A stretch of 64,000 nt of DNA from Micromonospora echinofusca (GTDB lineage: Bacteria; Actinomycetota; Actinomycetes; Mycobacteriales; Micromonosporaceae). The stretch is from positions 868,001 through 932,000 of the forward strand of contig NZ_LT607733.1 in NCBI RefSeq assembly GCF_900091445.1, written 5' to 3'. Position 1 is the first letter of the stretch; each line of letters starts with the position of its first letter. The notes under the pieces were generated by a model. It did not search any database. It was not told where the DNA came from and saw only the letters and a list, made by a program, of their open reading frames with translations. Below, in pieces: positions 7,357-43,897 of this stretch. The position numbers and the translations under genes were made by a program.

Positions 7357-7539
7357 GCGGCGACCTTACTTCCTCAAACCCGAATCCAGCTCATGCCTTC
7401 CGCGCCGCAGGTCAGAGGGCCTGCGTGCCGTTGATCCGGCATTCCGATCACGGGTTCCGCCGAGAGATCATGTCGGTCACCCCGAAAACGGCCGACCGTC
7501 GGTCGTCCCGGGTGACGCAGAGCAGAGGGAGGCCAACCG

Positions 7540-8439: not shown

Positions 8440-8459
8440 CCCGAGAGCGAGACAACCCC

Positions 8460-11110: not shown

Positions 11111-12615
11111 CCGTGACCTGGGATCCCCGGTTGATGACCGGGCGGGCGCCCGACGGCCCGGGCCTGCTGCGCAACTTCGTCGGTGGTGAGTTCGTCGGGG
11201 GTGGGCGGCGGTTCGTCAAGCGCAGTCCGGTGACGGGTGAGCCGGTGTTCGAGGTGGTGGAGGCGGATCGGGGGTGTGTGGACGATGCGGTCGCGGCGGC
11301 GCGGGGGGCGTTGCGGGGGCCGTGGGGTCGGATGGGGGAGCGGGAACGTGCGGAGGTGTTGCGTCGGGTCGCCGAGGAGTTGGAGCGTCGTTTCGATGAT
11401 CTGGTGACCGCTGAGGTGGCGGATACGGGTAAGTCGATTTCGCAGGCGCGGACGTTGGATGTTCCGCGTGGTGCGGCGAATTTCCGGGCGTTCGCGGAGA
11501 TTGTGGCGACGGCGTCGACGGAGTCGTTCACGACGGTGACGCCGTCGGGTGGGCGGGCGTTGAACTATGCGGTGCGTAAGCCGGTGGGTGTGGTGGCGGT
11601 GATCGTGCCGTGGAACCTGCCGCTGCTGCTGCTGACGTGGAAGGTCGCTCCTGCCCTTGCCTGCGGCAATGCGGTGGTGGTGAAGCCGAGTGAGGAGACG
11701 CCGGCGTCGGCGACGTTGTTGGCGGAGGTGATGGCGGCTGCCGGTGTGCCGGAGGGTGTGTTCAATCTGGTGCACGGTTTCGGTCCGGATTCGGCGGGTG
11801 AGTTCCTGACCCGGCATCCGGGGGTGGACGCGATCACGTTCACCGGTGAGTCGTCGACGGGCAGCACGATTATGCGGGCGGCGGCTGATGGGGTGCGGCC
11901 GGTGTCGTTCGAGTTGGGTGGCAAGAACGCGGGGCTGGTGTTCGCCGACGCGGATCTGGACGTGGCGGTGGCCGGTTCGGTGCGCTCCAGCTTCACCAAC
12001 GGCGGTCAAGTCTGCCTCTGCACGGAGCGGATCTACGTGCAGCGGCCGGTGTTCGAGGAGTTCACGGCGCGGCTTGCGCGGGAGGCCGGCGGGTTGCGGT
12101 TCGGGTGGCCTGCGGATGAGGCGACGGTGAACATGCCGTTGATTTCGCGTCAGCATCGGGACAAGGTGCTGGGCTATTACGACGTGGCTCGGGGTGAGGG
12201 TGCGCAGGTGTTGGCCGGGGGTGGGGTGCCGGCGTTTGGTGATGCGCGTGATGGTGGCGCGTATGTGCAGCCGACGGTGTTGACGGGGTTGGCTGCGGGG
12301 GCGCGGACGAATACGGAGGAGATCTTCGGGCCGGTGGTGCATGTGGCGCCGTTCGATGATGAGGAGGAGGCGTTCGCGTTGGCCAACGGCACGGAGTATG
12401 GGTTGGCGGCGGCGGTGTGGACGCGGGATGTGGGTCGGGCGCATCGGGCGGGGGCGCGGTTGGATGCGGGGATCGTGTGGGTGAACACGTGGTTCTTGCG
12501 GGATCTGCGGACGCCGTTTGGTGGGGTGAAGGCGTCGGGTATCGGGCGTGAGGGTGGCGTGCACTCCCTGGATTTCTATTCCGAGCTGACCAACGTCTGC
12601 GTGGACCTGACATGA
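11107..12615 (+). CDS. nbaE: 2-aminomuconate-6-semialdehyde dehydrogenase
   Basis: A 502-residue NAD-dependent aldehyde dehydrogenase of the AmnC/NbaE/DmpC/XylG branch. Catalytic set visible: VPWN (N170), ELGG (E269) and GQVCL (C303), plus the NAD loop FTGESSTGS. In this operon it should oxidise 2-aminomuconate semialdehyde, formed by the decarboxylase at the operon's end, to 2-aminomuconate. The coding strand from about 11200 is strikingly G- and T-rich (many GTG, TTG, GGT codons) compared with the preceding kyn genes, so this segment may have a different origin. It overlaps kmo by ATGA. Confidence 0.88.
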   Translation: MTVTWDPRLMTGRAPDGPGLLRNFVGGEFVGGGRRFVKRSPVTGEPVFEVVEADRGCVDDAVAAARGALRGPWGRMGERERAEVLRRVAEELERRFDDLVTAEVADTGKSISQARTLDVPRGAANFRAFAEIVATASTESFTTVTPSGGRALNYAVRKPVGVVAVIVPWNLPLLLLTWKVAPALACGNAVVVKPSEETPASATLLAEVMAAAGVPEGVFNLVHGFGPDSAGEFLTRHPGVDAITFTGESSTGSTIMRAAADGVRPVSFELGGKNAGLVFADADLDVAVAGSVRSSFTNGGQVCLCTERIYVQRPVFEEFTARLAREAGGLRFGWPADEATVNMPLISRQHRDKVLGYYDVARGEGAQVLAGGGVPAFGDARDGGAYVQPTVLTGLAAGARTNTEEIFGPVVHVAPFDDEEEAFALANGTEYGLAAAVWTRDVGRAHRAGARLDAGIVWVNTWFLRDLRTPFGGVKASGIGREGGVHSLDFYSELTNVCVDLT

Positions 12616-12682
12616 GCGGGCGTGGCGAGCACATGGGTGTCGCGGAGTGTCGTGGCGGCGGCGAGCGGAGCGGAAGGCTGAC

Positions 12683-13477
12683 ATGAGCGTCGATTACGAG
12701 GCGGCGGCCCGGGAGTTGGTCGAGGCGCGGGAGAGCGGCAAGCCGTGCCCGCCGCTGCGGGGGCGGTTGTTGCCCGAGGGCGACGTCACCTCTGCGTACC
12801 TCGTCCAGCAGCTCCAGGTGCGGCAGTGGTTGCAGCGCGGCCACCGGCGGGTGGGTGCGAAGGTCGGGTTGACGTCGCGGGCGGTGCAGGAGAGCTTCGG
12901 TGTGTTCCAGCCGGACTTCGGGGTGCTGCTCGACGACATGGCGGTGCCCGACGGGGCCGAGGTGGAGATGGACCGGCTGTTGCAGCCTCGGGTGGAGGCG
13001 GAGGTCGCGTTCGTGCTGGGTGCGGATCTGCCCGACGAGCGGATCACGAGCGTGGATGTGATCCGGGCGGTGGATCACGTGTTGCCGGCGATCGAGATCG
13101 TGGATTCGCGGGTGGCGGGTTGGGACATCTCGATCGTGGACACGGTGGCGGACAACGCCTCCAGCGGTCTGTTCGTGCTCGGTACCGCGCCGCGTCGGCT
13201 GGCGGATGTGGACCTGCGGTTGTGCGGGATGGTCCTGGAGCGGGCTGGTGAGCCGGTGTCGGTGGGGGCGGGCGCGGCGTGCCTGGGTAACCCGTTGCAC
13301 GCGGTGCAGTGGTTGGCGCAGACGATGGCCCGCTCCGGTGATCCGTTGCGTGCCGGGGATGTGGTGCTGTCCGGGGCGCTCGGCCCGATGGTGCCGGTGA
13401 CGCCTGGTGCGGCGTACGAGGCGCGCATCTCGGGGCTGGGTTCGGTGCGTACCTGTTTCTCGGGGGAGGCGTCGTGA
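12683..13477 (+). CDS. nbaH: 2-oxopent-4-enoate hydratase
   Basis: 264 residues, metal-dependent hydratase/decarboxylase family (MhpD/DmpE fold). GAKVGLTSRAVQESFGV, PRVEAEVAFVLG (metal-binding Glu cluster) and PAIEIVDSRVAGWD are the family blocks. It would hydrate 2-oxopent-4-enoate to 4-hydroxy-2-oxovalerate. A second paralogue lies three genes downstream; I assign hydratase here and decarboxylase there from the nba gene order, so the two could be swapped. Start ATG 12683 behind GGAAGG; 67 bp gap to the previous gene, the largest within the operon. Confidence 0.8.
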   Translation: MSVDYEAAARELVEARESGKPCPPLRGRLLPEGDVTSAYLVQQLQVRQWLQRGHRRVGAKVGLTSRAVQESFGVFQPDFGVLLDDMAVPDGAEVEMDRLLQPRVEAEVAFVLGADLPDERITSVDVIRAVDHVLPAIEIVDSRVAGWDISIVDTVADNASSGLFVLGTAPRRLADVDLRLCGMVLERAGEPVSVGAGAACLGNPLHAVQWLAQTMARSGDPLRAGDVVLSGALGPMVPVTPGAAYEARISGLGSVRTCFSGEAS

Positions 13478-13529
13478 CCGTGCGGGGTGGGTTGGCGACC
13501 GGTGTGGTCCTCGGTGACAGGGGTGTGGT

Positions 13530-14471
13530 GTGAGCGTTGGGGTGGCGGTGATCGGGTCGGGCAACATCGGTACCGATCTGATGATCAAGGTGCTGCGGTT
13601 GAGTGACAGCCTGCGGATGGTGGCGATGGTGGGCATCGACCCCGAGTCCGACGGGTTGGCGCGGGCGCGCCGGTTGGGTGTGGCGACCACCGCCGATGGT
13701 GTCGACGGCCTCGTCGCGATGCCGGAGTTCGCCGAGGTGGAGTTGGTGTTCGATGCCACGTCGGCGGGTGCGCATCGGCGCAACGACGCGGTGTTGGCGG
13801 CGCATGGTCGGCTGGTGGTGGATTTGACGCCGGCGGCGGTCGGTCCGTATGTGGTGCCGCCGGTGAACCTGGACGAGCATCTGGGCGAGCGCAACGTGAA
13901 CATGGTGACGTGTGGTGGGCAGGCGACGGTGCCGATCGTCGCCGCCGTGGGTCGGGTGACGCCGGTGGTGTACGGGGAGATCGTGGCGTCGATCGCGTCG
14001 CGGTCGGCGGGGCCGGGTACGCGGGCGAACATCGACGAGTTCACCGAGACCACGGCGCGGGCGATCGAGGTCGTCGGTGGCGCGCAGCGGGGTAAGGCGA
14101 TCATCGTGTTGAACCCGGCGGATCCGCCGCTGTTGATGCGCGACACGGTGTACTGCCTGTGTGAGGACGCCGACGCGGATCGGGCGGCGATCGCCGGGTC
14201 GGTGGCGGCGATGGTGGCGGCGGTGCAGGAGTACGTGCCGGGGTATCGGTTGAAGCAGGACGTGCAGTTCGACCGTGTCGACACCTTTGTGCCGTCGTTG
14301 GGTCGGCATCTGCGCGGGTTGCAGGTGTCGGTGTTCCTGGAGGTCTCCGGCGCGGGCCATTACCTGCCGGCGTACGCGGGGAACCTGGACATCATGACGT
14401 CGGCGGCGCTGCGCACGGCGGAGCGGCTGGTGGCGTTGCGTTCCGAGGCTGCTTCGGAGGTCCTGTCGTGA
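13530..14471 (+). CDS. nbaJ: Acetaldehyde dehydrogenase (CoA-acylating)
   Basis: 313 residues, DmpF/MhpF family. [15 protein letters not shown] binds [15 protein letters not shown] contains the catalytic Cys that forms the acyl-enzyme, and the C-terminal [18 protein letters not shown] block is family-specific. It converts acetaldehyde channelled from the aldolase to acetyl-CoA. These enzymes form a heterotetramer with the aldolase encoded next, and the genes overlap by GTGA, in keeping with stoichiometric production. GTG start. Confidence 0.93.
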
Positions 14472-15523
14472 CTGATCTGTACATCCAGGACGTGACGTTG
14501 CGCGACGGCATGCACGCCGTGGCGCACCGCTACACGGTGGAGCAGGTCCGCACCATCGCCGCTGCGCTCGACGCGGCGGGGGTGGCCGCGATCGAGGTCG
14601 CCCACGGTGACGGGCTGGCCGGCTCCAGCGTGAACTACGGCCATGGTGCGGCCAGCGACGCCGACTGGATCGCGGCGGCGGCCGAGGTCATGACGAACGC
14701 GAAGCTCACCACGTTGCTGCTGCCCGGTATCGGCACGATCGCCGACCTCAAGGCGGCGAAGGCCCTCGGCGTGACGAGTGTGCGCATCGCGACGCACTGC
14801 ACGGAGGCCGATATTTCGGCGCAGCACATCGCGTGGGCGCGGGAGAACGGCATGGACGTCTCCGGGTTCCTGATGATGTCGCACATGAACGACCCCGCCG
14901 GCCTCGCCGGACAGGCGAAGTTGATGGAGTCGTACGGGGCGCACTGCGTCTACGTCACCGACTCCGGAGGCCGGTTGCTGATGTCGGATGTGGCGCAGCG
15001 GGTGGATGCGTACCGGCAGGTGTTGGAGCCGAGCACGCAGATCGGTATCCATGCCCACCACAACCTGTCCCTCGGCGTCGCCAACAGCGTCGTCGCGGTC
15101 GAGCACGGCCGCATCGCCGGCGACGGTCCGCTCGGCTCGCCGTCGGGGCGCACCGTGCGGGTGGACGCGTCGTTGGCCGGGCAGGGTGCCGGTGCCGGTA
15201 ACGCGCCGTTGGAGGTGTTCGTGGCGGTCGCGGAGTTGCACGGCTGGGAGCACGGTTGTGACGTGTTCGCCCTGATGGATGCCGCCGACGACATCGTGCG
15301 GCCGTTGCAGGACCGGCCCGTGCAGGTCGACCGCGAAACCCTCTCCCTCGGCTATGCCGGGGTGTATTCGAGTTTCCTGCGCCACGCCGAGCGGGCCTCG
15401 GACAAGTACGGGGTGGACGTGCGCTCGATCCTGGTCGAGCTGGGCCGCCGCCGCATGGTCGGCGGGCAGGAGGACATGATCGTGGACGTGGCACTGGACC
15501 TCGCCGGCAAGGAGACCTCATGA
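14468..15523 (+). CDS. nbaI: 4-hydroxy-2-oxovalerate aldolase
   Basis: 351 residues, DmpG/MhpE family, a divalent-metal pyruvate aldolase. [17 protein letters not shown] supplies the Arg and Asp of the active site, [15 protein letters not shown] the metal-binding HxH and Asn, and the C-terminal [21 protein letters not shown] the small communication domain that docks to the dehydrogenase. Product: pyruvate plus acetaldehyde, the latter handed to the partner. GTG start overlaps the previous stop. Confidence 0.94.
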
Positions 15524-29528: not shown

Positions 29529-30437
<909 letters not shown>

Positions 30438-30484: not shown

Positions 30485-31108
30485 GCACGCGTGCTCCGGC
30501 TGGCCCTTGCCCCTGCGCCCGCCCGGTCGCCGGGCGTGCTGCTGGACCGATTGGTCGCCCGGGCCCCGCGGGGCCGGTTCTCCCACTGTTGCCGGGAGAT
30601 GGACACGCGCTGATTACGTTCAGGTCGCGCTCGCGCACAAGGGGGAGTGGCGACGACGGCATCGCCGAGGGCGGCACGCCCCGCGCCTGGGATGGGGTCG
30701 GTCCGGCGGCCAGCGCGTCGCCGGCTACCGCCCGTCATCGTGCCTGCTCGTCCGCGCGGCGGGGCCGGTCCGTCCGCCCGTCGGTCCGCCTCCACCAACG
30801 CTCGACGGTCCAGCGTGGAACTTCCGCGTACGCCGGCCTGCGGGCGAAGGATTCCCTGGTGGGAGGCCGGTCCGCCGGACGGGCGGCGCGCGGCGGGCCG
30901 CCCGCTGGCGCGGTCGCCAATTCCAAGTGACAGGAATCGATGTAGCAGAAAGTTGCATATTCCCTCGCTTCGATCAGCCCTCTAATGTCCTTGACCAGCA
31001 GCCAGGGCATCGACCGGTGCCGATAACTACCCTTGCTGTGCGTCGGGTCGGATTCGTCCCTTCCGCGGCGGGACGACAGGCCTGGCGGGCACGGGGACAG
31101 GAGGCGTG
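30485..31108. other. Long upstream region of the encapsulin-associated cluster
   Basis: About 620 bp with no convincing gene. The first 430 bp are GC-rich; 30915-31000 is distinctly AT-richer and is the likely promoter/regulatory zone for the five-gene cluster that follows. A short purine tract and GGAGG at 31100-31104 form the ribosome binding site of the first gene. Confidence 0.45.
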
Positions 31109-34100
31109 ATGAGGGCGGGCGACACCGTATCCGTGGCGGCGGTTCCCGTCTCCGACGGGCCCACCTGCCGGTGCACCGCCACCCCTGCGGCGGCCGCCGT
31201 CGGGACGCCGTACGACGACCGGCCCTTCCTGGCCGTGTCCGGCATGGTGGAAGAGCGCGTCGACCGGCACCCGCACCGCCGGGCGGTGTCGTTCCGGGGC
31301 CGCTCGCTGACGTACCGCGAACTCGACGACCTGGCCAACGGCGTCGCCGCCGCCCTGGCCGGGCGGGGCGTCCGGCGGGGCGACGTGGTGCCCGTCCTGC
31401 TCGCCGACGGGCTCGAACTGCCCGTCGTCGACCTGGCGTTGATGAAGCTCGGCGCGGCCTTCGTACCCGTCGACCCCGGCTGGCCGGCGGACCGGCTGCA
31501 CGCCTCGCTGCGGGTGGTCCGGCCCCGGCTCGCGGTGGTACGCGGCACCGGCCCGCGCCCCGACACCGGAGACGTCCCCTGCCTGCCCGTCGACCTCGAC
31601 GAGATCACCCCGACCCGCCGCCGGCCCGGCGTGCCGATCGGCCCGGCCGACCTGATCTACGGCATCTTCACCTCCGGCACCACCGGCACCCCGAAGTGCG
31701 CGCTGAACCGGCACGACGGCATCGCCAACCGGCTGCGGTTCATGACCCGTCACTTCGCGGCGACCGGTGACGAGGTGGTGCTCCAGAACAGCCGGCACAC
31801 CTTCGACTCGTCGGTGTGGCAGATGTTCTGGCCGCTGACCACCGGCGGTCGGACGGTGGTGCCGGTCGAGGGCGGGTTCCTCGACGTCGAGCGGACCGTC
31901 CGGACCATCGCCGACGAGACCGTCACGATGACCGACTTCGTGCCGAGCGTGCTCGGCGCGCTGGTGTCGGTCCTGGACCGGGACCCGGCGGCCCGGCGCG
32001 CGGTCGCCTCGCTGCGCAACGTGATCGTCGGCGGCGAGGAGATCGACCCCTGGGCGGTGCACCGGCTGGTCGAACTGGTGCCGGGCGTGGCGGTCACCAA
32101 CGGCTACGGTCCGACCGAGGCGTCGATCGGAATGATCTTCCACACCGTCGTCCGCAGCGACGGCGACGTCATCCCCATCGGTCGACCCATCGACAACTGC
32201 TACGCCGCTGTCGTGGACGACGAACTGCGGCCCCTGCCGCCGGGCGAGACCGGCGAGATCGTCATCGGCGGGGTGTGCCTGGGCGAGGGGTACCTCGGCG
32301 ACTCGGCCCGCACCGCCGAGGTGTTCGTGCCCAACCCGCTGCCCGCCATTCCGGGTGTCCGGCTCTACCGCACCGGCGACCTCGGCCGGGTCGCCCCCGA
32401 CGGCCGGCTGCACTTCGCCGGCCGCCGCGACCACCAGCTCAAGGTCAACGGCGTCCGGATCGAGGCGGGCGAGATCGAGACCGCCGCCACCCGGCTGGCC
32501 GGCGTACGGCAGGCGAAGGTCCTGCTCGCCCGCGAGCACCGGGGCAGGTCGCTGGCCCTCTTCCTCGCCGCCGACCCCGAGGTGACCGAGCCGCAGGTGC
32601 GGGCGCACCTGCGGCGGCTGCTGCCCCGGACCCACGTGCCCCGGCACGTCGTCGTGCGCGACGCGCTGCCGCTGACCGGCAACGGCAAGGTCGACCGGCA
32701 GGCGCTGGAGGCGTGGCTGGACCATACGTTCGCCGACCGGACACGTCCGTCGGCCGCGCCCGCCGAGGCGCGGACGCTGCCCGAGCGTGTGCTGGGGGTG
32801 TTCCGGACGGTCCTCGGCCGGCCAGACCTCGACCCCGACACCGACTTCCTCGACGCCGGGGGCGACTCGCTCCAGGCCCTCGACGTGGTCACCGCCCTCG
32901 GCGCGGACCAGAGCCTGCGCGTCGGCGTGCAGGACCTGTTCACCCACCGCAGCGCCGCCCGGCTCGCCCGGGCGCTCGCCGTACGGCTGCGTGCGGCCGA
33001 CCCCGCCGAGACCGAGGACGAGCTGGTGGAGCGGGACGCGAAGATCCCGGCCGACCTGCCCGTACGCCCCGTCGGCCGGCGCCGGGCGCCGCGTACGGTC
33101 CTGGTCACCGGGGCCACCGGATTCGTCGGCGCGCGCCTGGTGCACGAGCTGCTCGCCACCACCGACGTCCGGGTGTTGTGCCTGGCCCGCGCGGCCGACG
33201 ACGCCGAGGCCACCGCCCGCGTCGTGCGCGCGCTGGCCGAGCGGGGCCTGTGGCGGCCCGGCCACGACCTGCGCCTGCACGGGTACGCGGCCGACCTCGG
33301 CCGCCCGGCCCTCGGCCTGACGCCGCAGGCGTGGGACCGGCTGGCCCACGACTGCGACCTCGTGCTGCACGCCGGGGCGCTGGTCAACTTCCTGTTCGAC
33401 TACCGGGCCCACCGCGCCGCGAACGTCCTCGGCACCGCCGAGCTGCTGCGGCTGTGCCTGACGGGCCGGCCGAAGCCGCTGCACCACGTCTCCACCCTCG
33501 GCGTCCTCGACAGCGAGGCCGCCCGCCATCCGCAGCCGCTGCCCGAGACGTACGACCCGGCCCTCGCCGTCCCGCCGACGAGCGGCTACAGCCGGTCGAA
33601 GTGGGTGGCGGAGCGGTACCTCGACGACGCCCGGCGGCGGGGCGCGACCATCACGGTGCTGCGCCTCGGCGAGGTGATGCCCGCGGCCGACGACGGCCAC
33701 CCCAACCCCCGGGCCCTGACCCACCTGCTGCTGGCGGCCTGCCATCGGCTGCGGATGCGGCCCGACGCGCCCGTGCGCTCCGACTGGACGCCGGTGGACT
33801 GGGCCGCCCGGCGGATCGTCGCCACGGTCGTCGACCCGCGCCAGTGGGGCGGCACGCTGCACGTCCTGCACCCGGTGAGCGTCGACTTCACCGACCTGCC
33901 GCTGGGCGGCGCGGACGCCCTGCCCCGGGTGAGCTGCGGGCGGTTCCTGGCGGGGCTGCGCGAGGCGGCGGGCGAGGGCGACCGCGACGCCGCCGTGCTG
34001 CTGGCCCTCTTCCCGCCCGGCGCGGGCGCCGACGAGGAGCGGCTGCGCGCGGTCTTCGCGACGCTGCTCACCGACAACCCCCGGCTCTTCCGGCGCGACG

Positions 34101-34237
34101 GCTGCGCCGAGCTGGAACGGCGCCGGGGCTTCACCGACCACCGGCTCGGCCCGTCCGTCGGCGCCTACCGTGCCTGGCTGGGCGAGCACGAGGGGCGGGA
34201 GGCCGACCGGCTGCTGCTGCCGGCGGGACCAGGGTGA
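31109..34237 (+). CDS. NRPS-like enzyme: adenylation, carrier, thioester reductase (A-T-R)
   Basis: 1042 residues. A domain about 45-540 (SGTTGTPK at 189-196, NGYGPTE at 331-337, hinge/A8 around 438-457, catalytic Lys527 in NGKVDR); carrier domain about 555-630 with Ser587 in DAGGDSLQ; NAD(P)H thioester reductase about 660-1042 (TGATGFVG at 667-674, Tyr827 and Lys831 in YSRSK). No condensation domain. It should activate one amino acid, hold it as a thioester and release it by reduction to an aldehyde or alcohol. My hand-read specificity code is D-S-W-D-I-G-G-I-G-K; the leading Asp fits an alpha-amino acid, the rest matches nothing I know. Start ATG 31109, four bases after GGAGG. First gene of the cluster. 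Confidence 0.9.
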   Translation: MRAGDTVSVAAVPVSDGPTCRCTATPAAAAVGTPYDDRPFLAVSGMVEERVDRHPHRRAVSFRGRSLTYRELDDLANGVAAALAGRGVRRGDVVPVLLADGLELPVVDLALMKLGAAFVPVDPGWPADRLHASLRVVRPRLAVVRGTGPRPDTGDVPCLPVDLDEITPTRRRPGVPIGPADLIYGIFTSGTTGTPKCALNRHDGIANRLRFMTRHFAATGDEVVLQNSRHTFDSSVWQMFWPLTTGGRTVVPVEGGFLDVERTVRTIADETVTMTDFVPSVLGALVSVLDRDPAARRAVASLRNVIVGGEEIDPWAVHRLVELVPGVAVTNGYGPTEASIGMIFHTVVRSDGDVIPIGRPIDNCYAAVVDDELRPLPPGETGEIVIGGVCLGEGYLGDSARTAEVFVPNPLPAIPGVRLYRTGDLGRVAPDGRLHFAGRRDHQLKVNGVRIEAGEIETAATRLAGVRQAKVLLAREHRGRSLALFLAADPEVTEPQVRAHLRRLLPRTHVPRHVVVRDALPLTGNGKVDRQALEAWLDHTFADRTRPSAAPAEARTLPERVLGVFRTVLGRPDLDPDTDFLDAGGDSLQALDVVTALGADQSLRVGVQDLFTHRSAARLARALAVRLRAADPAETEDELVERDAKIPADLPVRPVGRRRAPRTVLVTGATGFVGARLVHELLATTDVRVLCLARAADDAEATARVVRALAERGLWRPGHDLRLHGYAADLGRPALGLTPQAWDRLAHDCDLVLHAGALVNFLFDYRAHRAANVLGTAELLRLCLTGRPKPLHHVSTLGVLDSEAARHPQPLPETYDPALAVPPTSGYSRSKWVAERYLDDARRRGATITVLRLGEVMPAADDGHPNPRALTHLLLAACHRLRMRPDAPVRSDWTPVDWAARRIVATVVDPRQWGGTLHVLHPVSVDFTDLPLGGADALPRVSCGRFLAGLREAAGEGDRDAAVLLALFPPGAGADEERLRAVFATLLTDNPRLFRRDGCAELERRRGFTDHRLGPSVGAYRAWLGEHEGREADRLLLPAGPG

Positions 34238-34281
34238 ACGGCCGCGCGCGACGCGATGACCGGCACGGATGAGGGAGTGGA

Positions 34282-35265
34282 ATGCGATACCGCAGGATGG
34301 GTCGGCTCGGCTGGCAGGTCAGCGAGGTCGGGTACGGGATGTGGGGCATCGGCGGTGGACCCGGCGGCTTCACCGGCTGGGACTACGACACCGCACCGGC
34401 CTGCCTGGACGAGGCGGTGGAACGGGGCTGCAACTTCTTCGACACCGCCTGGGTCTACGGGCGGGGCGTCAGTGAGCAGCTCCTCGGCGGCCTGGTACGC
34501 CGGCACCCGGACCGCCGGCTGTACCTGGCCACCAAGATCCCGCCGAAGAACCGCGAGTGGCCGCCCGGCCCCCAGGACACCCTGGACGACGTCTTCCCGG
34601 CCGAGCACATCCGCGAGTTCACCCACCGCAGCCTCGAGAACCTCGGCGTGGACCGGATCGACCTGCTCCAGTTCCACGTCTGGGAGGACCGGTGGGCCGC
34701 TGACGGCCGCTGGCAGGAGGCCGTCGCGGACCTCAAGCGGGAGGGCGTGGTCGACGGCGTCGGGATCAGCGTCAACCGCTGGGAGCCGACGAACTGCCAC
34801 GCCGCCCTCGACACCGGCCTGATCGACGTCGTGCAGGTCATCTACAACGTCTTCGACCAGGCGCCGGAGGACGAGCTGTTCCCGCGCGCCCAGCGCGACG
34901 ACATCGCGATCATCGCCCGGGTCCCGTTCGACGAGGGGACGCTGACCGGCACGCTGACCGCCGACAGCACCTGGCCGGAGGAGGACTGGCGCAGCACGTA
35001 CTTCGGGCCGGAGAACCTGCTGCCCAGCGTGGAGCGCGCCGAGCGGCTGGCCGCCGACGTGCCGGCGGGGATGACCATGCCGGAGCTGGCGCTGCGGTTC
35101 ATCCTGCACCACCCGGCGGTGAGCACGGTGATCCCCGGCATGCGCCGCGTCGAGCACGTGCGCGCCAACCTGGCCGTCAGCGACGGCGTACCGCTGGACG
35201 CCGGGGTGCTGGACACGCTGCGCGGCCACCGGTGGGACCGCAAGCCCACGTCGTGGTCGCAGTGA
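34282..35265 (+). CDS. Aldo/keto reductase
   Basis: 327 residues, NADPH-dependent (beta/alpha)8 reductase of the YajO/PdxI-like branch. FFDTAWVYGRG holds the catalytic Asp and Tyr, ATKIPP the Lys, LLQFHVW the His; the C-terminal STVIPGMRRVEHVRANL block binds the cofactor. 44 bp after the reductase-terminated NRPS gene and with a good GAGGGAG RBS. The obvious role is to reduce the released aldehyde or another carbonyl on the product (inference from context). Confidence 0.9.
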   Translation: MRYRRMGRLGWQVSEVGYGMWGIGGGPGGFTGWDYDTAPACLDEAVERGCNFFDTAWVYGRGVSEQLLGGLVRRHPDRRLYLATKIPPKNREWPPGPQDTLDDVFPAEHIREFTHRSLENLGVDRIDLLQFHVWEDRWAADGRWQEAVADLKREGVVDGVGISVNRWEPTNCHAALDTGLIDVVQVIYNVFDQAPEDELFPRAQRDDIAIIARVPFDEGTLTGTLTADSTWPEEDWRSTYFGPENLLPSVERAERLAADVPAGMTMPELALRFILHHPAVSTVIPGMRRVEHVRANLAVSDGVPLDAGVLDTLRGHRWDRKPTSWSQ

Positions 35266-35305
35266 GCGCGGCGCAGCACCGGGCGACGCGGTACGGGAGG
35301 CCGAC

Positions 35306-36043
35306 ATGCCGGTGATCGCCATGTGGGCGCACCCCCGGGCGCTCTCCACCGCGTTCCTGCGCATGATGATCGCCCGCGGCGACGTCACCGTCGTCCACGA
35401 GCCCCTGGTCACCCTCGTCGACGAGGGGCACGTGGAGCTGCCCGGCGTGGACGGCGGCACCGTCACCGTGACCGACGCGACCGAGGTCGGCACGCACCTG
35501 CGGAAGCTGGGCCGGGACCGGACGGTCTTCGTCAAGGACACTCTGGAGTACCGCTACGAGCACCTGTTCGCCGATCCCGGGGCGATCACGGACGTCACGC
35601 ACACCTTCATCGTCCGGGAACCGGCCCGCACGATCAGCTCGCACTACGCGATCAAGCCGACGGTGACCTGCCCGGAGATCGGCTTCGAGCACCAGTGGGA
35701 GTTGTTCGACCTGGTCAGCCGGACCGCGCTCCGGCCGCCGGTGGTGATCCGGGCCGAGGACCTGCTGCGGCACCCGGGCGAGACGGTGTCGGCCTGGTGC
35801 GAGGCCGTGGGGCTGCCGTTCCTGCCGGAGGCGCTGAACTGGGCGCCGGGGGAGCGCACCGAGTGGCGGCGTACCCGCAAGTGGCACCTCGACGTCGAAC
35901 GCACCTCGGGGTTCTCGCCGGTCGAGAAGTCCTTCGAGGTGACCGTCGCCAACAACGACACCCTGCGGTCGTACCACGACCACCACCAGCCCTTCTACCA
36001 GCGGCTGATCCGGCACGCCATCTGCATCGGGGAGGACTCATGA
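35306..36043 (+). CDS. Sulfotransferase family protein
   Basis: 245 residues. MWAHPRALSTAFLRMM is the 5'-phosphosulfate-binding loop of PAPS sulfotransferases, and FIVREPARTISSHYA the 3'-phosphate motif; the C-terminal half (WHLDVERTSGFSPVEKSF) is less typical, matching the divergent sulfotransferases found in secondary-metabolite clusters. It would transfer sulfate to a hydroxyl, plausibly the alcohol produced by the reductases. Its stop overlaps the shell-protein start (ATGA), tying the two products together. A non-transferase scaffold role cannot be excluded. Confidence 0.82.
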   Translation: MPVIAMWAHPRALSTAFLRMMIARGDVTVVHEPLVTLVDEGHVELPGVDGGTVTVTDATEVGTHLRKLGRDRTVFVKDTLEYRYEHLFADPGAITDVTHTFIVREPARTISSHYAIKPTVTCPEIGFEHQWELFDLVSRTALRPPVVIRAEDLLRHPGETVSAWCEAVGLPFLPEALNWAPGERTEWRRTRKWHLDVERTSGFSPVEKSFEVTVANNDTLRSYHDHHQPFYQRLIRHAICIGEDS

Positions 36044-36897
36044 CCACCACCGCCGCGCCGCCAGTGACCGCGTCGTCGACGCTGTCGCCCGGTGAGCTGT
36101 TCGCCCGCGCGTACGCCGACGATCCCGCCGGCGCCGAGGTGCGCTTCGACTACACCATCACGGACGCCTTCCAGCCGACCAAGGAACGCCCCCGGGTGAC
36201 CGTGCGCAACCTGTTCCGCAAGCGGCCGGTCGGCATGGAGCCGGTCCGGTTCTGGTCCGAGGGCCGGCCCGACGCGGGCGGGGCCGCCGCCGTGCACGAG
36301 TCGGGCCTGCGCCGGGAGGCCGCCTTCCGGTTCGGCACCGCCTCCGCCGGGGTGCACCCGATCCGCGCCTGGGTGCGCATCCCCGAGGAACTCGCCGACG
36401 ACCCGGAGGCGGTGGCCTCCTTCATCGACTACCGGCTGCTGGTCCGCCTCGCCACGGCCGAGAACCAGGCGCTGACCATCGGCGAGGGCGGTCTGTTGCG
36501 GCATCCGGAGATCGGGCGGCTGCCGTACCGGCACGACTGGCTCAGCGGCCTGCTCGCCGCCTGCGACGAGATCGAGCAGACCGGGGCCACCCCGCACGCG
36601 ATGATCGTCAACCCGAGGGACTACTACACCCACCTGCTCGGCAAGGGCTCCCTCCTGACGGACCTGACCCGCAACGGCGTCCAGATCAGCCGTACGCGGA
36701 TGGTGGCGCCGGGCGAGGCGGTGGTGGGGGACTTCGCGATGGCGGCCCGCCTGCTGGACGCGGGGCGGTCCGCGATCCGCGTCGGCACCCCGCCGCCCGG
36801 TACCCTGTCCATCGATGGACCGGCCGTCTGTGCCGAGATCCACGAGGGGCTGGCCGTGCACCTGCCGACCCACTTCTTCCACGTAGTACCGGCCTAG
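36040..36897 (+). CDS. HK97-fold shell protein, candidate family 3 (natural product) encapsulin
   Basis: 285 residues, sequence unlike any enzyme but with the layout of an HK97-type major capsid protein: flexible N-terminal arm (1-45), elongated E-loop region (about 50-105), spine helix with DPEAVASFIDYRLLVRLATAENQ (121-143), IGEGGLL loop, A-domain helix (LSGLLAACDEIEQTG), the capsid-typical AMIVNPRDYYTHLLGKGS, VAPGEAVVGDFAMAARLLDAGRS, and the terminal strand AEIHEGLAVHLPTHFFHV. No protease, portal, terminase or tail genes are nearby, so this is not a prophage; instead it sits in a biosynthetic cluster next to a sulfotransferase, the setting reported for family 3 encapsulins. No classical cargo-loading peptide is evident at the neighbours' C-termini. 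Predicted to self-assemble into a cytoplasmic nanocompartment. Confidence 0.78.
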   Translation: MTTTAAPPVTASSTLSPGELFARAYADDPAGAEVRFDYTITDAFQPTKERPRVTVRNLFRKRPVGMEPVRFWSEGRPDAGGAAAVHESGLRREAAFRFGTASAGVHPIRAWVRIPEELADDPEAVASFIDYRLLVRLATAENQALTIGEGGLLRHPEIGRLPYRHDWLSGLLAACDEIEQTGATPHAMIVNPRDYYTHLLGKGSLLTDLTRNGVQISRTRMVAPGEAVVGDFAMAARLLDAGRSAIRVGTPPPGTLSIDGPAVCAEIHEGLAVHLPTHFFHVVPA

Positions 36898-36915
36898 GAG
36901 CGTCGTCGCAAAGCC

Positions 36916-38094
36916 ATGACCGGCGGAAAACTGTTGACCGGCGAGAAACTGTCGTTCTACCGGCCCATCGTGCCGCTCTTCGCCGCGATCTTCCTGTGCC
37001 TGCTCGGCGTCGGCGCGTCCCTGGCCGTGCTGCCGTTCTACGTGCTCGACGAACTGGACGGCAACCGGGTCGAGGTGGGGGTGGTGATCGCCGCGATTGC
37101 GGTCTCCGCCGTGATCGCCCGGCCCATCGCCGGCCGGATCGGCGACCGGCACGGGTACCGGACGGTGATGCTGGGCGGGGCGGTGGTGTGTGCCGCCGCC
37201 GGGGCGGCCTACCTGGTGGCCGGCAACGTCGGCGTGCTGGTCGGCGTCCGGGTCCTGCACGGGATCGGTGAGGCGGCCGTCTACACCGCCGGCGCGGCCT
37301 GGCTGGTGGCGCTGGCGCCGGCCGACCGGCGGGGCCGCGTCGTCGGCCTGTACGGCATCCACATGTGGCTGGGCATCACGCTGGGCGCCCTGCTCGGCGC
37401 GGTGCTGCTGCGTACCTCCGGTTATCCGGCGGTGTGGCTGTTCGCGATCCTGGCGGCGGCCGCCGGGGCCGCGCTCGTCGCCGCCCGACCGGGGCCGCAG
37501 CAGGCGAGCCCGGCGGGCCGGGCCGGCCTCCTGCCGCGCAGTACGTGGGCGCCCGGCGTCGCGCTCTCCCTGGCCGGGTTCGGCTACGCCGCGCTGGCCG
37601 CGTTCGTGGCCCTGCACATGGCCGAGCGGGGCGTCGAGAACGGCATCGCCGCGTTCAACGCGTTCGGCTTCACCTACGTGGGGGTCCGGCTCTTCGTGGG
37701 CGGGCTGCCCGACAAGCTCGGCGCCGGCCGGGTGGCCGTGGGGTCGGCCCTGGTGGAGGCGGTGGGGCTGCTCCTCGTCGCGGTCGCGCCGAACCTGCTG
37801 GTCGCGGTCCTCGGCGGGCTGGTGATCGGCGCTGGGCTCTCGCTGCTCTTCCCGGCGCTGGCCCTGTTGGTCATCAACCGCACGGACCCGGCCCACCAGG
37901 GGGCGGCGCTCGGCGCGTTCACCTCGTTCTGGGACATCGGCCTGGTGGCCGGGGCACCGCTGGCCGGCCTGGTCGCCAGCGTGGCCGGCTACCCGGCGGT
38001 CTTCCAGGTGATGCTGCTGGCGGCGCTGGTGTCGGCGGCCCTCTCGGCGTGGACGATGCTGCCCCGTCGCTCCCGTGACCAACACCCCGGCTGA
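36916..38094 (+). CDS. MFS transporter (exporter of the encapsulin cluster)
   Basis: 392 residues, about 12 TM helices. The loop RIGDRHGYRTVML after TM2 is the MFS signature; the N-terminal half shows the regular Gly/Ala spacing of drug:H+ antiporters. It follows the shell gene by 18 bp and ends the cluster, so export of, or self-resistance to, the cluster's product is the likely role. Downstream lies an 18-bp inverted repeat. Confidence 0.88.
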   Translation: MTGGKLLTGEKLSFYRPIVPLFAAIFLCLLGVGASLAVLPFYVLDELDGNRVEVGVVIAAIAVSAVIARPIAGRIGDRHGYRTVMLGGAVVCAAAGAAYLVAGNVGVLVGVRVLHGIGEAAVYTAGAAWLVALAPADRRGRVVGLYGIHMWLGITLGALLGAVLLRTSGYPAVWLFAILAAAAGAALVAARPGPQQASPAGRAGLLPRSTWAPGVALSLAGFGYAALAAFVALHMAERGVENGIAAFNAFGFTYVGVRLFVGGLPDKLGAGRVAVGSALVEAVGLLLVAVAPNLLVAVLGGLVIGAGLSLLFPALALLVINRTDPAHQGAALGAFTSFWDIGLVAGAPLAGLVASVAGYPAVFQVMLLAALVSAALSAWTMLPRRSRDQHPG

Positions 38095-38197: not shown

Positions 38198-39295
38198 TCA
38201 GGGGAAGCGGGAGGGGGAGAAGGGGGTGGGGTCGACCGGGGGCGGGGCGTCGACCGTCAGCGCGGCGAGCAGGGCGCCCGCCGCCGGGGAGGTCTGGACG
38301 CCGTAGCCGCCGAGCCCCGCCATCCAGAGGAAGCCCGGCGCGTCGGTCGCCGGGCCGATCACGGGCACGTCGTCCGGGGCGGCGGTCCGCAGCCCGGCCC
38401 AGGGCTGGTGGACGCGGCGGATCTCCAGTGTGGTCGCCGCCTGCACCCGGTCTGCGCCGATCGCCACGTCGAGGTCGTCGGGGCGGGCGTCACCGGGCGG
38501 CGCCGGGGTGGTGTCGCACGGGGAGACCAGCAGGCGTCCCGACTCCGGCTTGAAGTAGAAGCTGCCGTCGACGTCGTTGACCATCGGCCAGTCTCCCGCC
38601 GGGACGCCGGCCGGCGCGTCCACCAGGAAGGCGGTGCGCCGCAGGGGCGTCAACCCCACCGGTCGTACGCCGGCCGCCGCCGCGACCTCGTCGGCCCAGG
38701 CACCCGCGGCGTTGACGACGACCCGGGCGGTGAACTCGCCGGCATCCGTGGTGACCTGCCATCCGCCGCCGCTCCGCCGCAGCCGGCGCACCCGCGCGCC
38801 GCACACGACCCGGCCGCCGGCCGCTCGGACGCCCCGCAGGTACCCCTGGTGCAGCGCGGCGACGTCCAAGTCCCGTACGGCCGGCTTCACCATCGCCCGC
38901 CGGCACCACTCGGGCCGCACGACGGGGCAGTGCCGGGGCAGGTCGGCGACGTCGATCTCGCGGGCCGGCGGGTCCACCTCGGCCCCGTCGCGCAGCGCCT
39001 CCTCGAAGGCGTCCTCGCTGCCGGGTGGGCAGAGGCTGAGCACGCCGCGCGGGGTGAGCAGCGGGTGCTCGGCGAATCCCGTTGGCGGCGCGGTGAGGAA
39101 GCCTCGGCTGGCCCGGGTCAGCGCGCGCACCGCCGACCCGCCGTAGTACTCGGAGAACACGGCGGCCGAACGGCCGGTGGAGTGCTGGCCGGGGACCTGC
39201 TCCATCTCCAGCAGCACCACGGTCCCGTACGCGGCGAGGTGGTGTCCGGCGCTGGCGCCCGCGATACCCCCGCCGATGACCAGATAGTCGATCAT
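38198..39295 (-). CDS. FAD-dependent amine/D-amino-acid dehydrogenase (DauA-like)
   Basis: 365 residues, DAO-fold flavoprotein. YLVIGGGIAGASAGHHLA binds FAD; the following HSTGRSAAVFSEYYG and GFAEHPLLTPRG are close to the corresponding blocks of Pseudomonas D-arginine dehydrogenase (from memory), including the active-site Glu of the latter. VVNAAGAWAD and GFLWMAGLGGYGVQTSPAAG complete the FAD site. It would oxidise a D-amino acid or cyclic amine to the imino acid. Convergent with the encapsulin cluster, so probably independent of it, though an amino-acid-oxidising neighbour is suggestive. Start ATG 39295. Confidence 0.85.
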   Translation of the reverse strand: MIDYLVIGGGIAGASAGHHLAAYGTVVLLEMEQVPGQHSTGRSAAVFSEYYGGSAVRALTRASRGFLTAPPTGFAEHPLLTPRGVLSLCPPGSEDAFEEALRDGAEVDPPAREIDVADLPRHCPVVRPEWCRRAMVKPAVRDLDVAALHQGYLRGVRAAGGRVVCGARVRRLRRSGGGWQVTTDAGEFTARVVVNAAGAWADEVAAAAGVRPVGLTPLRRTAFLVDAPAGVPAGDWPMVNDVDGSFYFKPESGRLLVSPCDTTPAPPGDARPDDLDVAIGADRVQAATTLEIRRVHQPWAGLRTAAPDDVPVIGPATDAPGFLWMAGLGGYGVQTSPAAGALLAALTVDAPPPVDPTPFSPSRFP

Positions 39296-39429: not shown

Positions 39430-40653
39430 TCAGGGGCCGCAGTAGAGCAGGCGGTTCGGCGTGCCGCTGACCACGCCCGTCACCACCCCGATCGTCGCCC
39501 GGCCGGTCAGGTGGGCCGCGACCTGGGCGGGACTCCAGGTCGGGTTGGCCGAGAGGGCGAGCGCGGCGCAGCCGGCGACGTGCGCCGCGGCCATCGAGCC
39601 GCCGCTGATGGTGACCGCCGCCGCGTCGCCGGTGTGCCAGGTGGAGGTGATGTTGGCACCGGGGGCGTACAGGTCGAGGCAACTGCCGTAGTTGCCGCTC
39701 GGCATCCGGGCGTCGGTGATGGTGGTTCCGGCCACGGTGAGCGCCGCCGCTATCCGGGCGGGGGAGTAGTTGCAGGCGTTGGCGTTCGAGCTGCCGGCCG
39801 TGACGACGTAGGTCACCCCGGACGCGATCGACCGGTTCACCGCGGCGTCCAGCGCCGTGCTCGCGCCGCCGCCGAGCGCCAGCAGCGCCACCGCCGGCCG
39901 GACGGCGTTCGCCGTGACCCAGTCCACCCCGGCGATCACCTGGGAGAACGTGCCGCTGCCCGCGCAGTTGAGCACCCGCACCGGCCGCAGCCGGACCTCC
40001 TTGGCCACCCCGTGCAGGGTGCCGCCGACGGTCCCGGCGAGGTGGGTGCCGTGGCCGTTGCAGTCGTCCGCCGGGCCGCCGTCGACCAGGTCGACCCCGC
40101 CGCCGGCCCGGACGCCGAAGTCGCCGTGCGTGCTCCGGATGCCCGTGTCGATGACGTACGCGTGCACGTTGTGCGCGGTGTTCGGGTAGGCGTACCGGCC
40201 GTCGAGCGGGAGGCGGCGCTGGTCGATCCGGTCCAGCCCCCACGACGGCGGGTTGAGCTGCACGCCCGGCCCGACGAGGGTCACCACGCGGTCCCGTTCC
40301 ACGTACGCCACGGTCGGGTCGGCGGCGAGCCGTCGGGCCGCCCGCTCGGGCAGGTGCGCCACGAATCCGCTGAGCGCGTGCCCGTAGACGCGGCCGACGG
40401 TGGCCCCGTAGCGGTCGGCCAGCCGGCCGGCGGCGTCCGTGACGGCGGCCCGCCGACCGTCGGGGTGCCCGAGCGCGTCGTCCCTGAGCACCACCACGTA
40501 TGCGTCGGTCACGGCGCTCGCGGCGTCGGCGTGCAGGATCCCGCCGGTGGCCGGGTTCGCCGCCGCGGGGGTGCCCATCGCGGCGACGACCGTGGCGGCG
40601 GCGAGTACGCCCACCGCGCGGGCGCGCCATCGCCGGGTACGGGGAAGTGTCAT
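39430..40653 (-). CDS. Secreted subtilisin-like protease (S8, proteinase K type) with altered active-site surroundings
   Basis: 407 residues: signal peptide (1-32), I9 inhibitor propeptide (about 50-125, [10 protein letters not shown] to AYVERDR), peptidase S8 domain (about 135-407). Triad D169 (VIDTGI), H201 (NGHGTHLAG) and S353 are present. However the oxyanion-hole Asn of the AGN-N/S-NA motif is Ser288 ([13 protein letters not shown]), and the usual GTSMA-T/S-PHVAG reads [11 protein letters not shown]; the normally polar NMSLGG strand is LLALGG. Activity may be weak or specificity changed. ATG 40653 with AGGAGGA RBS. Confidence 0.9.
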
Positions 40654-40768: not shown

Positions 40769-43700
40769 CTACTCGGCGAACCGGTAGAGCACGAATCCGT
40801 ACGGGGACTGCGCCCCGGCGTCCCCGCTCTGTCTTCCGGCGCCGCAGACGATCACGCTGGTGTTCCACGAGCAGCTGTCGCTGCGTACGTCCTTCAACTG
40901 GCCCAGCTCGGCCACCTCGCCCGAGCCCACCGACATCCCGGCGACGCTGCGGTCGTCCTCGATCGAGCTCGGCGGGTCGGCGAGGAGGAGCACGTTGCCC
41001 GCGTCGAGTCGGACCGCCACCCCGCCGCGCTCGGAGAGCACGGCGCGACCGTCGGGGCCGAACAGCGTGCCGGCCGCCTCCGGGGTGGTCCGTCGGGCGA
41101 GCAGGTGCTCACCGAGCGGCACCAGCAGGGTCGCCTCCGGCGCCTTCCAGCGGGTCCACTTCTCCTCGGTCGCCGCCACGACCTCGGCGGTCTCGCCGTC
41201 GCCCCCGGTCACCTCCAGGAGGCACGCCCGGTGCTCGCCGCAGGGCACCAGCGACTTCGGCCGGCGCCGGTCGTCCTCCGCGGTGTAGAGCACCTTCGGC
41301 TGGGCGTCGCTCGTCAGGTCGTACGCCAGCAGCTGGTAGCCGGCGTCGTCGCGCGCCACGTAGAGCCGGTCCTCGTGCGCCACCACCAGGTCGTCGTGGT
41401 CGGCCACCCCGGCTCGGGTGGAGACCACCCGGCCGCTGCCCATCTCGATCAGCCGGACGGACCGGTCCGCGCCCACCTGCACGATCCGGCTGACGTCCCC
41501 GCGCCACGGATCGCGCGGGGAACCGTCGAGGAAGGCCGGGCCGGCCAGCGCCTTGTCGGTGGTCACCGGGTGGACGGCGGTGCGCGTGTTGTCGTACTCG
41601 TCGCGCGGGCTGGGCTGCGCCCAGATCTCCCCGCCGTCGCGCAGACGCAGCCCGACGAGCCGCTTGCCGGTGCGGTCGACCTGCACCGCGACGCCGTCGC
41701 CGAAGAGGACGTCGTCGTCGCCCAGGATCGGCCGGCGCCACCGCTGGTCGCCAGAGGCGCCGTCGAGCAGCACCAGGTCGCGGGGGGTGTCGTCGCCGAT
41801 GGCGTCGGCGACGACCGCGACCGCGCCGGGCAGCGCGACGATCCGCTCCCACCGCTCGGAGGTCGCCGCCGTCTGTCTGCGCCACTTCACCGCGCCGGTG
41901 CCGGCGTCGAGCGCCACCACCTCCAGCCGCCCGTCGTCGAGCGGATATCCGAGGTACGCCCGGTCGCCGAGGACGGCGGTGAACATGTCCGCCGGGCGCT
42001 GCGTGCCGGCGGGCACCCGGGTCAGCTGGTCGACGGTGCGGAACTCCAGGGCCGGGTAGCGGTCCCGGGTCAGGTACAGCAGGGCCGCGGTCGCCACGCC
42101 GGCCAGCGCGAGGACGGCGGCGAGCGAGATCCAGAGCGCCCGGCGTCGGGGGAGCGCCAGCCCGCTCCGGCCGCCGCCGGGCGACGGCGACACCGGCGTC
42201 CCGGAGACGGGTACGCCTGAAGGCGCCCCGGCAGGACCGCCCGGCGTCGCGTGGGACGCCCCGCCTCCGGCCGGTGCGCCCGGGGCCGGCGTCCCCGACG
42301 GGACGTACGGCACCGCGCCCGCGGACGACGACGCAGCCGGCGCCCACGGCGACGGGCCTGTGCCCGGCGGCGCGAACGAGGCCGGTCCCGCGCCCGGCGG
42401 TGCGAACGGCGAGGGGCCTGCGCCCGGCGGCGCGAACGAGGCCGGACCCGCGCCCGGCGGTGCGAAGGGAGTGGCCGGTGCCGGTGCGGCGGGCACGGTC
42501 GGGGCGGTCGGCGCCAGCCCGGCGGGCATGACCGGTGTGACGCCCTCCGGTCCGGCGACGGCGGTCGGCGTGGGGGCCGAGCCGGCGGGCACGGTCGGCG
42601 CACTGCCGTCCCGGCCGCCGACGCCGTCGTCCGGCACGTCGGGCGCTGCTGGGGCGGCGGCCTGTGGCGCCGGCGCGAGGGGACCCGGTCGTGGTGCTCC
42701 GGCCGGTTGCGCCGGTGCGACGGCGGGTGCGGCGAAGGCGTCGGCGGCCCGGGCGCGCCGGGGCAGGGGCAGGTCGGTCAGCGCCCCCTCGGCCACGGGC
42801 AGCTCCGGCTGCTCCAGCACGGTCGGGGCGACGGCCAGCTCGGCGTGCAGCAGCCGGGCCACCATCGGCATCCGGGTGGCGCCGCCGACCAGGAACAGGC
42901 CGGAGAGCTGCTGCGCGTCGAGGCCGGCCGACGCGATCACCTCCCGGGTCACCGCCACCGCCCGACCCAGCAGCGGCGCGGCCACCCGCTCCAGGTCGGC
43001 CCGGGTGAGCGTGACCGCCGCCTCCACCCCCGGTACGGCCACCGGCGCGGCCGGCACCCGCGACAGCATCTCCTTGGCGCCCCGGACGTTCTCCCAGAGT
43101 TCGTGGCGCTCCCGCCACTGGGTCGCGGACTCCGGACGGGTCAGCCGCTCCCACCGGTCGGGGTGCGCCTCGGCCACCAGCTCACCGAGGCGACCCAGCA
43201 GGGCGGCGTCCACGTCCAGGCCACCGAGGTCGTCGGCGCCGCCCGCCGTGACGACCGTGAACCCGGAGTCGCCCCACGGGTCCGCGCCCTCGTTGCGCAG
43301 CACCGCGACGTCCAGCGTCCCGGCGCCGAAGTCGAAGACCGCGATCGTCCCGCCCACCGGCACCGGGCGGCGCAGCACCTGGGTGTAGTAGCGGGCGGCG
43401 GCCACCGGCTCCCGCAGCAGCCGGGTGCCCGGCGGCGTGGGACCGGAGAGCGTGTGCTCGGCCGCCGACGGCCAGCCGGCCGCCGCCAGGGCGTCGGCCA
43501 GCACCTGGCGCCGGGCCGCGTCCCAGGTCGCCGGGCAGGTGAGCACCGCCGGAGGCAGGAACCCGACCGCCTCGACGGCCGCCCGGGCCACCGCGTGCAG
43601 CGTCGCGGCCAGCAGCTCGGCTGGCGGGTAACGGCGATCGCCCAGCAGCACCGTGGGCTCGTCGATGCGCCGCTTCGGGTTGGGCTCGTACCGGCCCGGG

Positions 43701-43897
43701 TCGGTCCGGGCCAGCCGCTGGGCGTCCCGGCCGGCGTGCAGCAGCCCGTCCGCGTCGGCGTACACGCCCGAGGGGATGATCGGCTGCCCGTCCACGAGCA
43801 GCGGGCGGGTGTGCCCGTCGGGCCGGCGCAGCACGGCGACGGTGTGGGACGTGCCGAGGTCGACGCCGAGGGCGTACCCCTCGTGCTGGCCTGCCAT
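40769..43897 (-). CDS. Hsp70/DnaK-like ATPase fused to a membrane-anchored beta-propeller
   Basis: 1042 residues. Residues 1-370 are an actin/Hsp70 nucleotide-binding domain ([37 protein letters not shown]). Residues about 390-580 are a Pro/Ala/Gly linker containing tandem 10-residue [12 protein letters not shown] units (about 472-511). A single TM helix (about 586-608) leads to a PQQ/WD-like propeller outside the cell ([17 protein letters not shown] and similar blades, to 1042). The DnaK substrate-binding domain is missing. Such fusions are typical of Micromonosporaceae and may couple cytoplasmic ATP-dependent state to an external sensor (inference). ATG 43897. Confidence 0.85.
42363..42482 (-). 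repeat. Four 30-bp tandem repeats inside the Hsp70-fusion gene
   Basis: A 30-bp unit starting CCCGGCGG recurs at 42363, 42393, 42423 and 42453 with few changes, encoding the FAPPGAGP(S/A) repeats of the extracatalytic linker. Prone to copy-number variation by slippage. Confidence 0.85.

Follow-up and report, generated by a model that had tools for sequence, protein, structure and literature searches.

Family 3 encapsulins have been surveyed by Andreas and Giessen (2021; PMC8346489). The sections of the survey relied on here describe 132 systems sorted into six classes, in which sulfotransferases, short-chain dehydrogenases/reductases (SDRs) and nonribosomal peptide synthetases (NRPSs) are common partners; they term the role of the family unknown, report no structure solved by 2021, and already propose sequestered aldehydes and sulfated products. 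A shell of this family is encoded, within a small biosynthetic cluster, in the DNA analysed here, a stretch of 64,000 nucleotides from Micromonospora echinofusca (contig NZ_LT607733.1, positions 868,001 to 932,000; hereafter the window). The window system shares with those published the shell family (NF041188), its phage-capsid annotation, the residence in an actinobacterial biosynthetic cluster, and sulfotransferase and NRPS-type partners. Published clusters are called large in the same sections; in contrast, the window type is made of about six conserved genes, and features a single synthetase module of adenylation, carrier and thioester reductase domains (A-T-R). The family itself is known; the operon type of the window could belong to one of the six published classes or lie outside them.

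Azabicycle pathways of the azinomycin, vazabitide and ficellomycin type, with the aziridine synthase AziU2/AziU3 (PDB 7wuw, 7wux, 8gs1), feature a PF19798 sulfotransferase homologous to that of the window, and in most of the AziU3 loci compared AziU2 follows it as the shell does here. According to the portions used of PMC12559475, PMC9570651 and PMC8713700, in ficellomycin and azinomycin a hydroxyl beside an amine is sulfated, and the sulfate is then displaced to form an aziridine. The window differs from these pathways in having a shell, an A-T-R synthetase, an aldo-keto reductase (AKR) and an oxidoreductase of the DAO family, and in lacking AziU2/AziU3 and a DegT aminotransferase; LysX, LysZ, ArgC-like and transketolase queries also found no match in it. 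As outlined in PMC8346489, the cluster by which Myxococcus sp. MCy10608 produces chloromyxamide is similar by description, combining a family 3 shell with an amino-acid-derived aza-ring (6-chloromethyl-5-methoxypipecolic acid), and different because it makes peptides.

The cluster in the window is viewed as a six-gene family 3 system in which an amino acid would be turned into an aldehyde, an alcohol, an O-sulfate and, probably, a closed ring, in or on the shell, before export. A probability of about 40% is given to this proposal as a whole. In its broad lines the idea is already contained in the aldehyde and sulfate proposals of the survey (PMC8346489, as excerpted). The link between the shell and aziridine chemistry is new in print as far as the literature searched shows; no connection of encapsulins with aziridine, azabicycle, amino-group carrier or sulfate-elimination chemistry was found there, the matches being an unrelated chemistry paper, the survey itself and a review on natural products that alkylate DNA.

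The shell and its conserved gene set

The shell gene (36040–36897, plus strand) was the fourth of five genes singled out in a preliminary description of this DNA, which had read an HK97 capsid layout in its product and placed it among family 3 shells. Both assignments hold. The protein matches NF041188 (encap_f3) at 358.4 bits (cut-off 180) and PF05065 (Phage_capsid) at 35 bits (cut-off 24.2), close homologues already carry the family 3 encapsulin name at NCBI, and the partners are A-T-R, AKR, sulfotransferase, major facilitator superfamily (MFS) and DAO genes. A structure model (mean pLDDT 91.5, pTM 0.87) predicts the HK97 fold, and the top Foldseek match of the model is 8fqk (E 5.1e-18). A biosynthetic cluster with a family 3 encapsulin shell is confirmed, at the level of sequence family and predicted fold. 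The shell differs from classical encapsulins, the aligned residues being 21% identical to EncA of Myxococcus xanthus (family 1), and 12% to HK97 gp5. No family 3 structure was found in the PDB by sequence search; none is listed by VIA-align either, which counts as weak evidence. Twenty-six residues are invariant among 53 shell sequences representing the three shell types described below, and dN/dS values of 0.10–0.29 in six comparisons denote purifying selection. The shell model matches once in the single-contig 7.0 Mb source genome. Family 3 shells above cut-off mark 55/350 genomes of the family, 13/61 close and order-level relatives, and 9/394 genomes of the class. Matches to NF041188 of 19–58 bits, to be compared with the cut-off of 180, were seen at loci L019, L020 and L028–L040, and are probably phage capsids.

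Pfam and PHROGs both group the shell with phage capsid families. A predominance of phage homologues, the objection raised in the preliminary description, was not observed: 44 of 50,697 phage records match the shell, all at <60% identity (21.9–23.1% in the ten listed), and viral contigs gave one weak match of 24 residues. Portal, terminase and tail families were absent when the cluster genes and 8 flanking frames were scanned with Pfam, in a region spanning ~25.8–45.1 kb of the window, in line with the earlier view that no phage genes surround the shell.

The five genes lie on the plus strand, as previously described. The A-T-R gene spans 31106–34237; it opens with GTG at 31106, and ATG follows at 31109, the start chosen earlier. 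AMP-binding (252.6 bits), PP-binding (46.2 bits; carrier Ser587) and NAD_binding_4 (175.6 bits; Y828 and K832) domains are recognized in the product, which also matches the TIGR01746 thioester reductase model (243.3 bits, cut-off 213.35). The AKR gene (34282–35265; Aldo_ket_red, 171.1 bits) is followed by that of a sulfotransferase (35306–36043; Sulfotransfer_5 PF19798, 54.3 bits) of the 3'-phosphoadenosine 5'-phosphosulfate type. The sulfotransferase and shell genes share 4 bases, the ATGA that includes the sulfotransferase stop, as had been noted. A predicted MFS exporter (36916–38094; MFS_1, 153.1 bits) comes last. On the opposite strand a convergent gene (38198–39295) encodes a flavin adenine dinucleotide (FAD)-dependent oxidoreductase of the DAO family. 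The A-T-R, AKR, sulfotransferase and DAO proteins each have active-site or cofactor motifs, with the meanings that we assume for them. The catalytic tetrad of the AKR is taken to be D54, Y59, K85 and H132; in the sulfotransferase, HPRxxSTAF, from residue 9, presumably corresponds to a phosphosulfate-binding loop, and R104 and S111 are assigned in the same way.

Nineteen loci of the window type have been compared (the window, L002–L006, L044, L058, L112, L122–L131). The set includes L005, cut by a contig end, and leaves out G496, G462, G567, G720, G715 and G751, known as ~3 kb slices. All 19 contain A-T-R, AKR and sulfotransferase genes; 18 contain the shell, 17 DAO and 13 the MFS gene. Because DAO is kept in 17/19 loci, the cluster is made of six genes; the preliminary description, which counted five and called the cluster minimal, missed this member and included the less conserved exporter. 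In the window, L002, L122, L124–L128 and L130, the DAO gene comes after the exporter in convergent orientation; it is upstream and co-directional with A-T-R in seven loci (L003, L004, L006, L044, L058, L112, L131), and divergent upstream in L129. AKR proteins from the remaining 18 loci are 67–99% identical to that of the window. The 4-base overlap of sulfotransferase and shell genes recurs in 10 of the 18 shell loci; gaps of 10–56 bases separate the two genes in 7, and one pair is mis-called because of a frameshift. The same gene order was found again in other genera. Sulfotransferases at least 59% identical to that of the window occur at 20 places in the 350 family genomes (one match spans residues 43–171 only), and the shell adjoins 18 of them; the other two, described below, are in genomes G449 and G721. 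Recurring order, recurring overlap and purifying selection indicate an association beyond chance.

Some loci deviate from this pattern. In L127 the AKR (8778–9757) and shell (10549–11402) genes are each split in two frames by a 4-base step, either a sequencing error or decay; as a consequence, its AKR and shell rows are wrong at the start in the locus comparison and the alignment of termini. Genome G721 carries a remnant (L155, 8343–10392) in which pieces of sulfotransferase and DAO genes abut, next to a trypsin gene; the surrounding 19 kb contain no match to the A-T-R, AKR, shell or MFS genes. A gene for a 551-residue acyl-CoA ligase-like protein, found just upstream of A-T-R in L002 (2943–4598) and L123–L125, was discarded as a core member, as it is absent from the window, L122, L126 and L128.

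Genes flanking the cluster in the window encode a trypsin (29541–30437), DUF1015, RpiB, subtilase and HSP70/PQQ proteins; three frames have no Pfam match. The trypsin gene neighbours the cluster in some Micromonospora loci (L002, L122, L125, L126, L128); the clusters fetched from other genera showed no such neighbour. The protein encoded at 40772–43897 (minus strand) has an HSP70 domain and, after it, a PQQ-repeat region; the subtilase gene (39433–40653) adjoins. A scan for promoters and terminators gave no match, and is uninformative at this G+C content.

Shell neighbourhoods and aziridine-linked sulfotransferases

Family 3 shells reside in two other gene neighbourhoods. The second type includes 10 loci (L045–L051, L054, L056, L057; L049 is cut short), whose shells are 45–48% identical to that of the window. 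Shell, sulfotransferase, SDR, DAO and racemase-like genes are accompanied by DegT aminotransferase and methyltransferase genes (9/10 each) and by an MFS homologue (44–57% identity) in all 10. The third type includes 6 loci (L041–L043, L052, L053, L055), with shells at 34–37% identity, and features SDR, PF13469 sulfotransferase, transketolase, amino-acid kinase/M20, LysX-like and ArgC-like genes. A CysN-like gene lies a few kb from the sulfotransferase and shell in 4 of the 6 (L041–L043, L055), and could aid the supply of activated sulfate. All three types share a sulfotransferase and the shell.

Relatives of the window sulfotransferase lead to a different gene partner. At ≤50% identity no shell was found within 50 kb of them when two lists of places in the 350 genomes were compared. 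Twenty-one non-window-type loci were retrieved over 3 kb or more; 12 of them carry AziU3, and in 9 of these 12 AziU2 lies behind the sulfotransferase, co-directional and within 200 bases. Two neighbours checked against the PDB correspond to AziU2 (7wuw, E 1.8e-49) and AziU3 (E 2.7e-73) from azinomycin biosynthesis. Among the 20-kb loci, five (L116, L117, L119–L121) additionally contain azabicycle genes of amino-group carrier type. The window enzyme is 40–47% identical to the 12 sulfotransferases of the AziU3 loci, and 43–47% to those of the five 20-kb loci. The AziU-linked loci have been picked by hand from the list of places similar to the window sulfotransferase, many lower-scoring places being left out. 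A PDB search with the sulfotransferase was uninformative: the best 60 of 85 matches were mostly antibodies, with CurM (E 0.027) as the one marginal sulfotransferase.

In a tree of 52 sulfotransferases, midpoint-rooted for drawing only, the window type forms a clade (support 98/88) that includes the shell-less L112; five of its rows (P ids) enter as sequences only. The neighbouring clade of 14 rows (95/87) holds the 12 AziU-linked enzymes, L118 and L154. The nearest branches to the window type are L113, L114, L144 and L152, which have no shell in the fetched stretch; six generic PF19798 enzymes fall outside both clades, one of them (L137) on a long branch.

Shell and AziU genes appear mutually exclusive. 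AziU2 and AziU3 were found neither in the window nor in any of 34 shell loci; these loci are partly close relatives, and some are short-flanked (L005, L044, L049, L053, L058), so that they do not count as independent events. AziU3 was not found in the whole source genome (G000); it occurs in 2 of 43 shell-bearing genomes searched whole (G735, G008), each time away from the shell locus and close to a different sulfotransferase. The exclusion could simply mean different end products, as third-type loci do not match a DegT query that finds the aminotransferase in the five large AziU loci. Judging from gene order, the shell gene sits where the aziridine synthase gene sits, apparently coupled to the sulfotransferase gene; the shell may enclose the sulfation step, or replace the synthase. 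On the comparison of shell types and of aziridine-linked relatives, we regard the reaction of the sulfotransferase as central to the system.

A candidate pathway and its rivals

A-T-R enzymes give off aldehydes. In the window cluster, the A-T-R synthetase would activate a single, specific amino acid, releasing it reductively as an amino aldehyde, which the AKR would convert into an amino alcohol. The sulfotransferase would sulfate that hydroxyl, or one of the side chain; a nearby amine would then attack, the sulfate would leave, and an aziridine or a larger aza-ring would close. The FAD oxidoreductase may oxidise an amine at some stage, and the MFS pump would export the product. The shell, whose translation is probably coupled to that of the sulfotransferase, most likely houses or scaffolds sulfation and cyclisation, and would shield the cytoplasm from the electrophile. 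We infer its assembly and cargo, as each of these reactions and the leaving-group role of sulfate, from gene content and homology.

Ten specificity positions of the adenylation domain, which we take from GrsA and place by motif, read DSWD[I/V]G[G/A]IGK in 19/19 loci, across which whole A-T-R proteins diverge to 51% identity. The near-invariant code makes a single amino acid substrate likely.

Several observations weigh against the proposal. The code strings were not found in the literature searched, so that no amino acid can be named as substrate. Because AziU2/AziU3 and amino-group carrier genes are missing from the window, sulfate displacement is not directly shown. For 9 of the 21 non-window-type sulfotransferase loci, the DNA retrieved contains no AziU3. 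L112 (genome G449, 7506–14871) has DAO, A-T-R, AKR and sulfotransferase genes, and no shell behind the last. The 1.6 kb of contig that follow encode, on the opposite strand, a luciferase-like oxidoreductase and a peroxiredoxin-like protein, so named by sequence, outside any family call. G449 carries a shell of a different type elsewhere (L108); the shell is therefore not strictly required in cis. L113 joins an A-T-R-like gene to a related sulfotransferase in the absence of a shell, and L123 (G725) has neither DAO nor MFS genes in 19 kb, the rest of the cluster being intact. No convincing cargo peptide was found in the termini of A-T-R, sulfotransferase, DAO and MFS proteins aligned over 13–19 loci. 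A conserved [hydrophobic][STA]PxR motif at the C-terminus of DAO was rejected as cargo peptide, since it resembles a feature that we assume to be general in that enzyme family. The representative third-type sulfotransferase belongs to PF13469, and second-type enzymes match it at 40–45%.

Doubtful, yet the best placed among the alternatives, is the view that the sulfate stays, the product being a stable sulfated amino alcohol and the shell just organising the enzymes. The absence of an AziU-type cyclising enzyme from the cluster and of AziU3 from the genome would fit, as would the sulfated hydroxyls predicted for family 3 products by Andreas and Giessen (PMC8346489, in the sections used). Against a kept sulfate stands the neighbouring sulfotransferase clade, encoded beside aziridine synthase genes. 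The possibly sulfated product of the preliminary description stands as one of two readings; the relatives make a leaving-group sulfate somewhat likelier.

It is rather unlikely that the shell confines a reactive amino aldehyde, with A-T-R or AKR as cargo and sulfation occurring later, outside. The chemistry of the A-T-R family agrees with this explanation, and the relevant part of PMC8346489 proposes sequestered aldehydes or ketones; however, the gene coupled to the shell is that of the sulfotransferase (4-base overlap in 10/18), and the other two shell types have a sulfotransferase, whereas the window A-T-R query has no best match there. Improbable is also an HK97-fold protein that forms no closed container and acts as a scaffold, or a cargo-less capsid-derived helper. 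One related cluster manages without a shell, but purifying selection, the confident fold model and the 26 invariant residues argue against this explanation. A prophage remnant adjoining an unrelated cluster, suggested by the grouping with phage capsid families, is made very unlikely by the scan of the flanking frames, the remoteness of the phage relatives, and a gene order that repeats in several genera.

Meaning for family 3 encapsulins

Returning to sulfate as a leaving group, the reading might be extended to the whole family: shells would be containers of this chemistry, the shell of window-type clusters replacing AziU2/AziU3, as position and mutual exclusion hint, with sulfotransferase and displacement in or on it, and a small aza-ring electrophile (an aziridine or a larger ring) made from one amino acid as product. 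This extension is distinctly speculative and on balance improbable. If true, it would also account for the aza-ring amino acid found in chloromyxamide.

The cluster is small, nearly single-substrate judging from the adenylation code, and sharply bounded wherever it recurs, which makes it tractable for the study of family 3 function. Kinship of the sulfotransferase makes the role of the shell testable: whether the sulfate is kept or displaced, and whether the step occurs inside the shell. Should displacement happen there, domestication would have turned a virus-derived capsid into a container for an alkylating electrophile during its synthesis.

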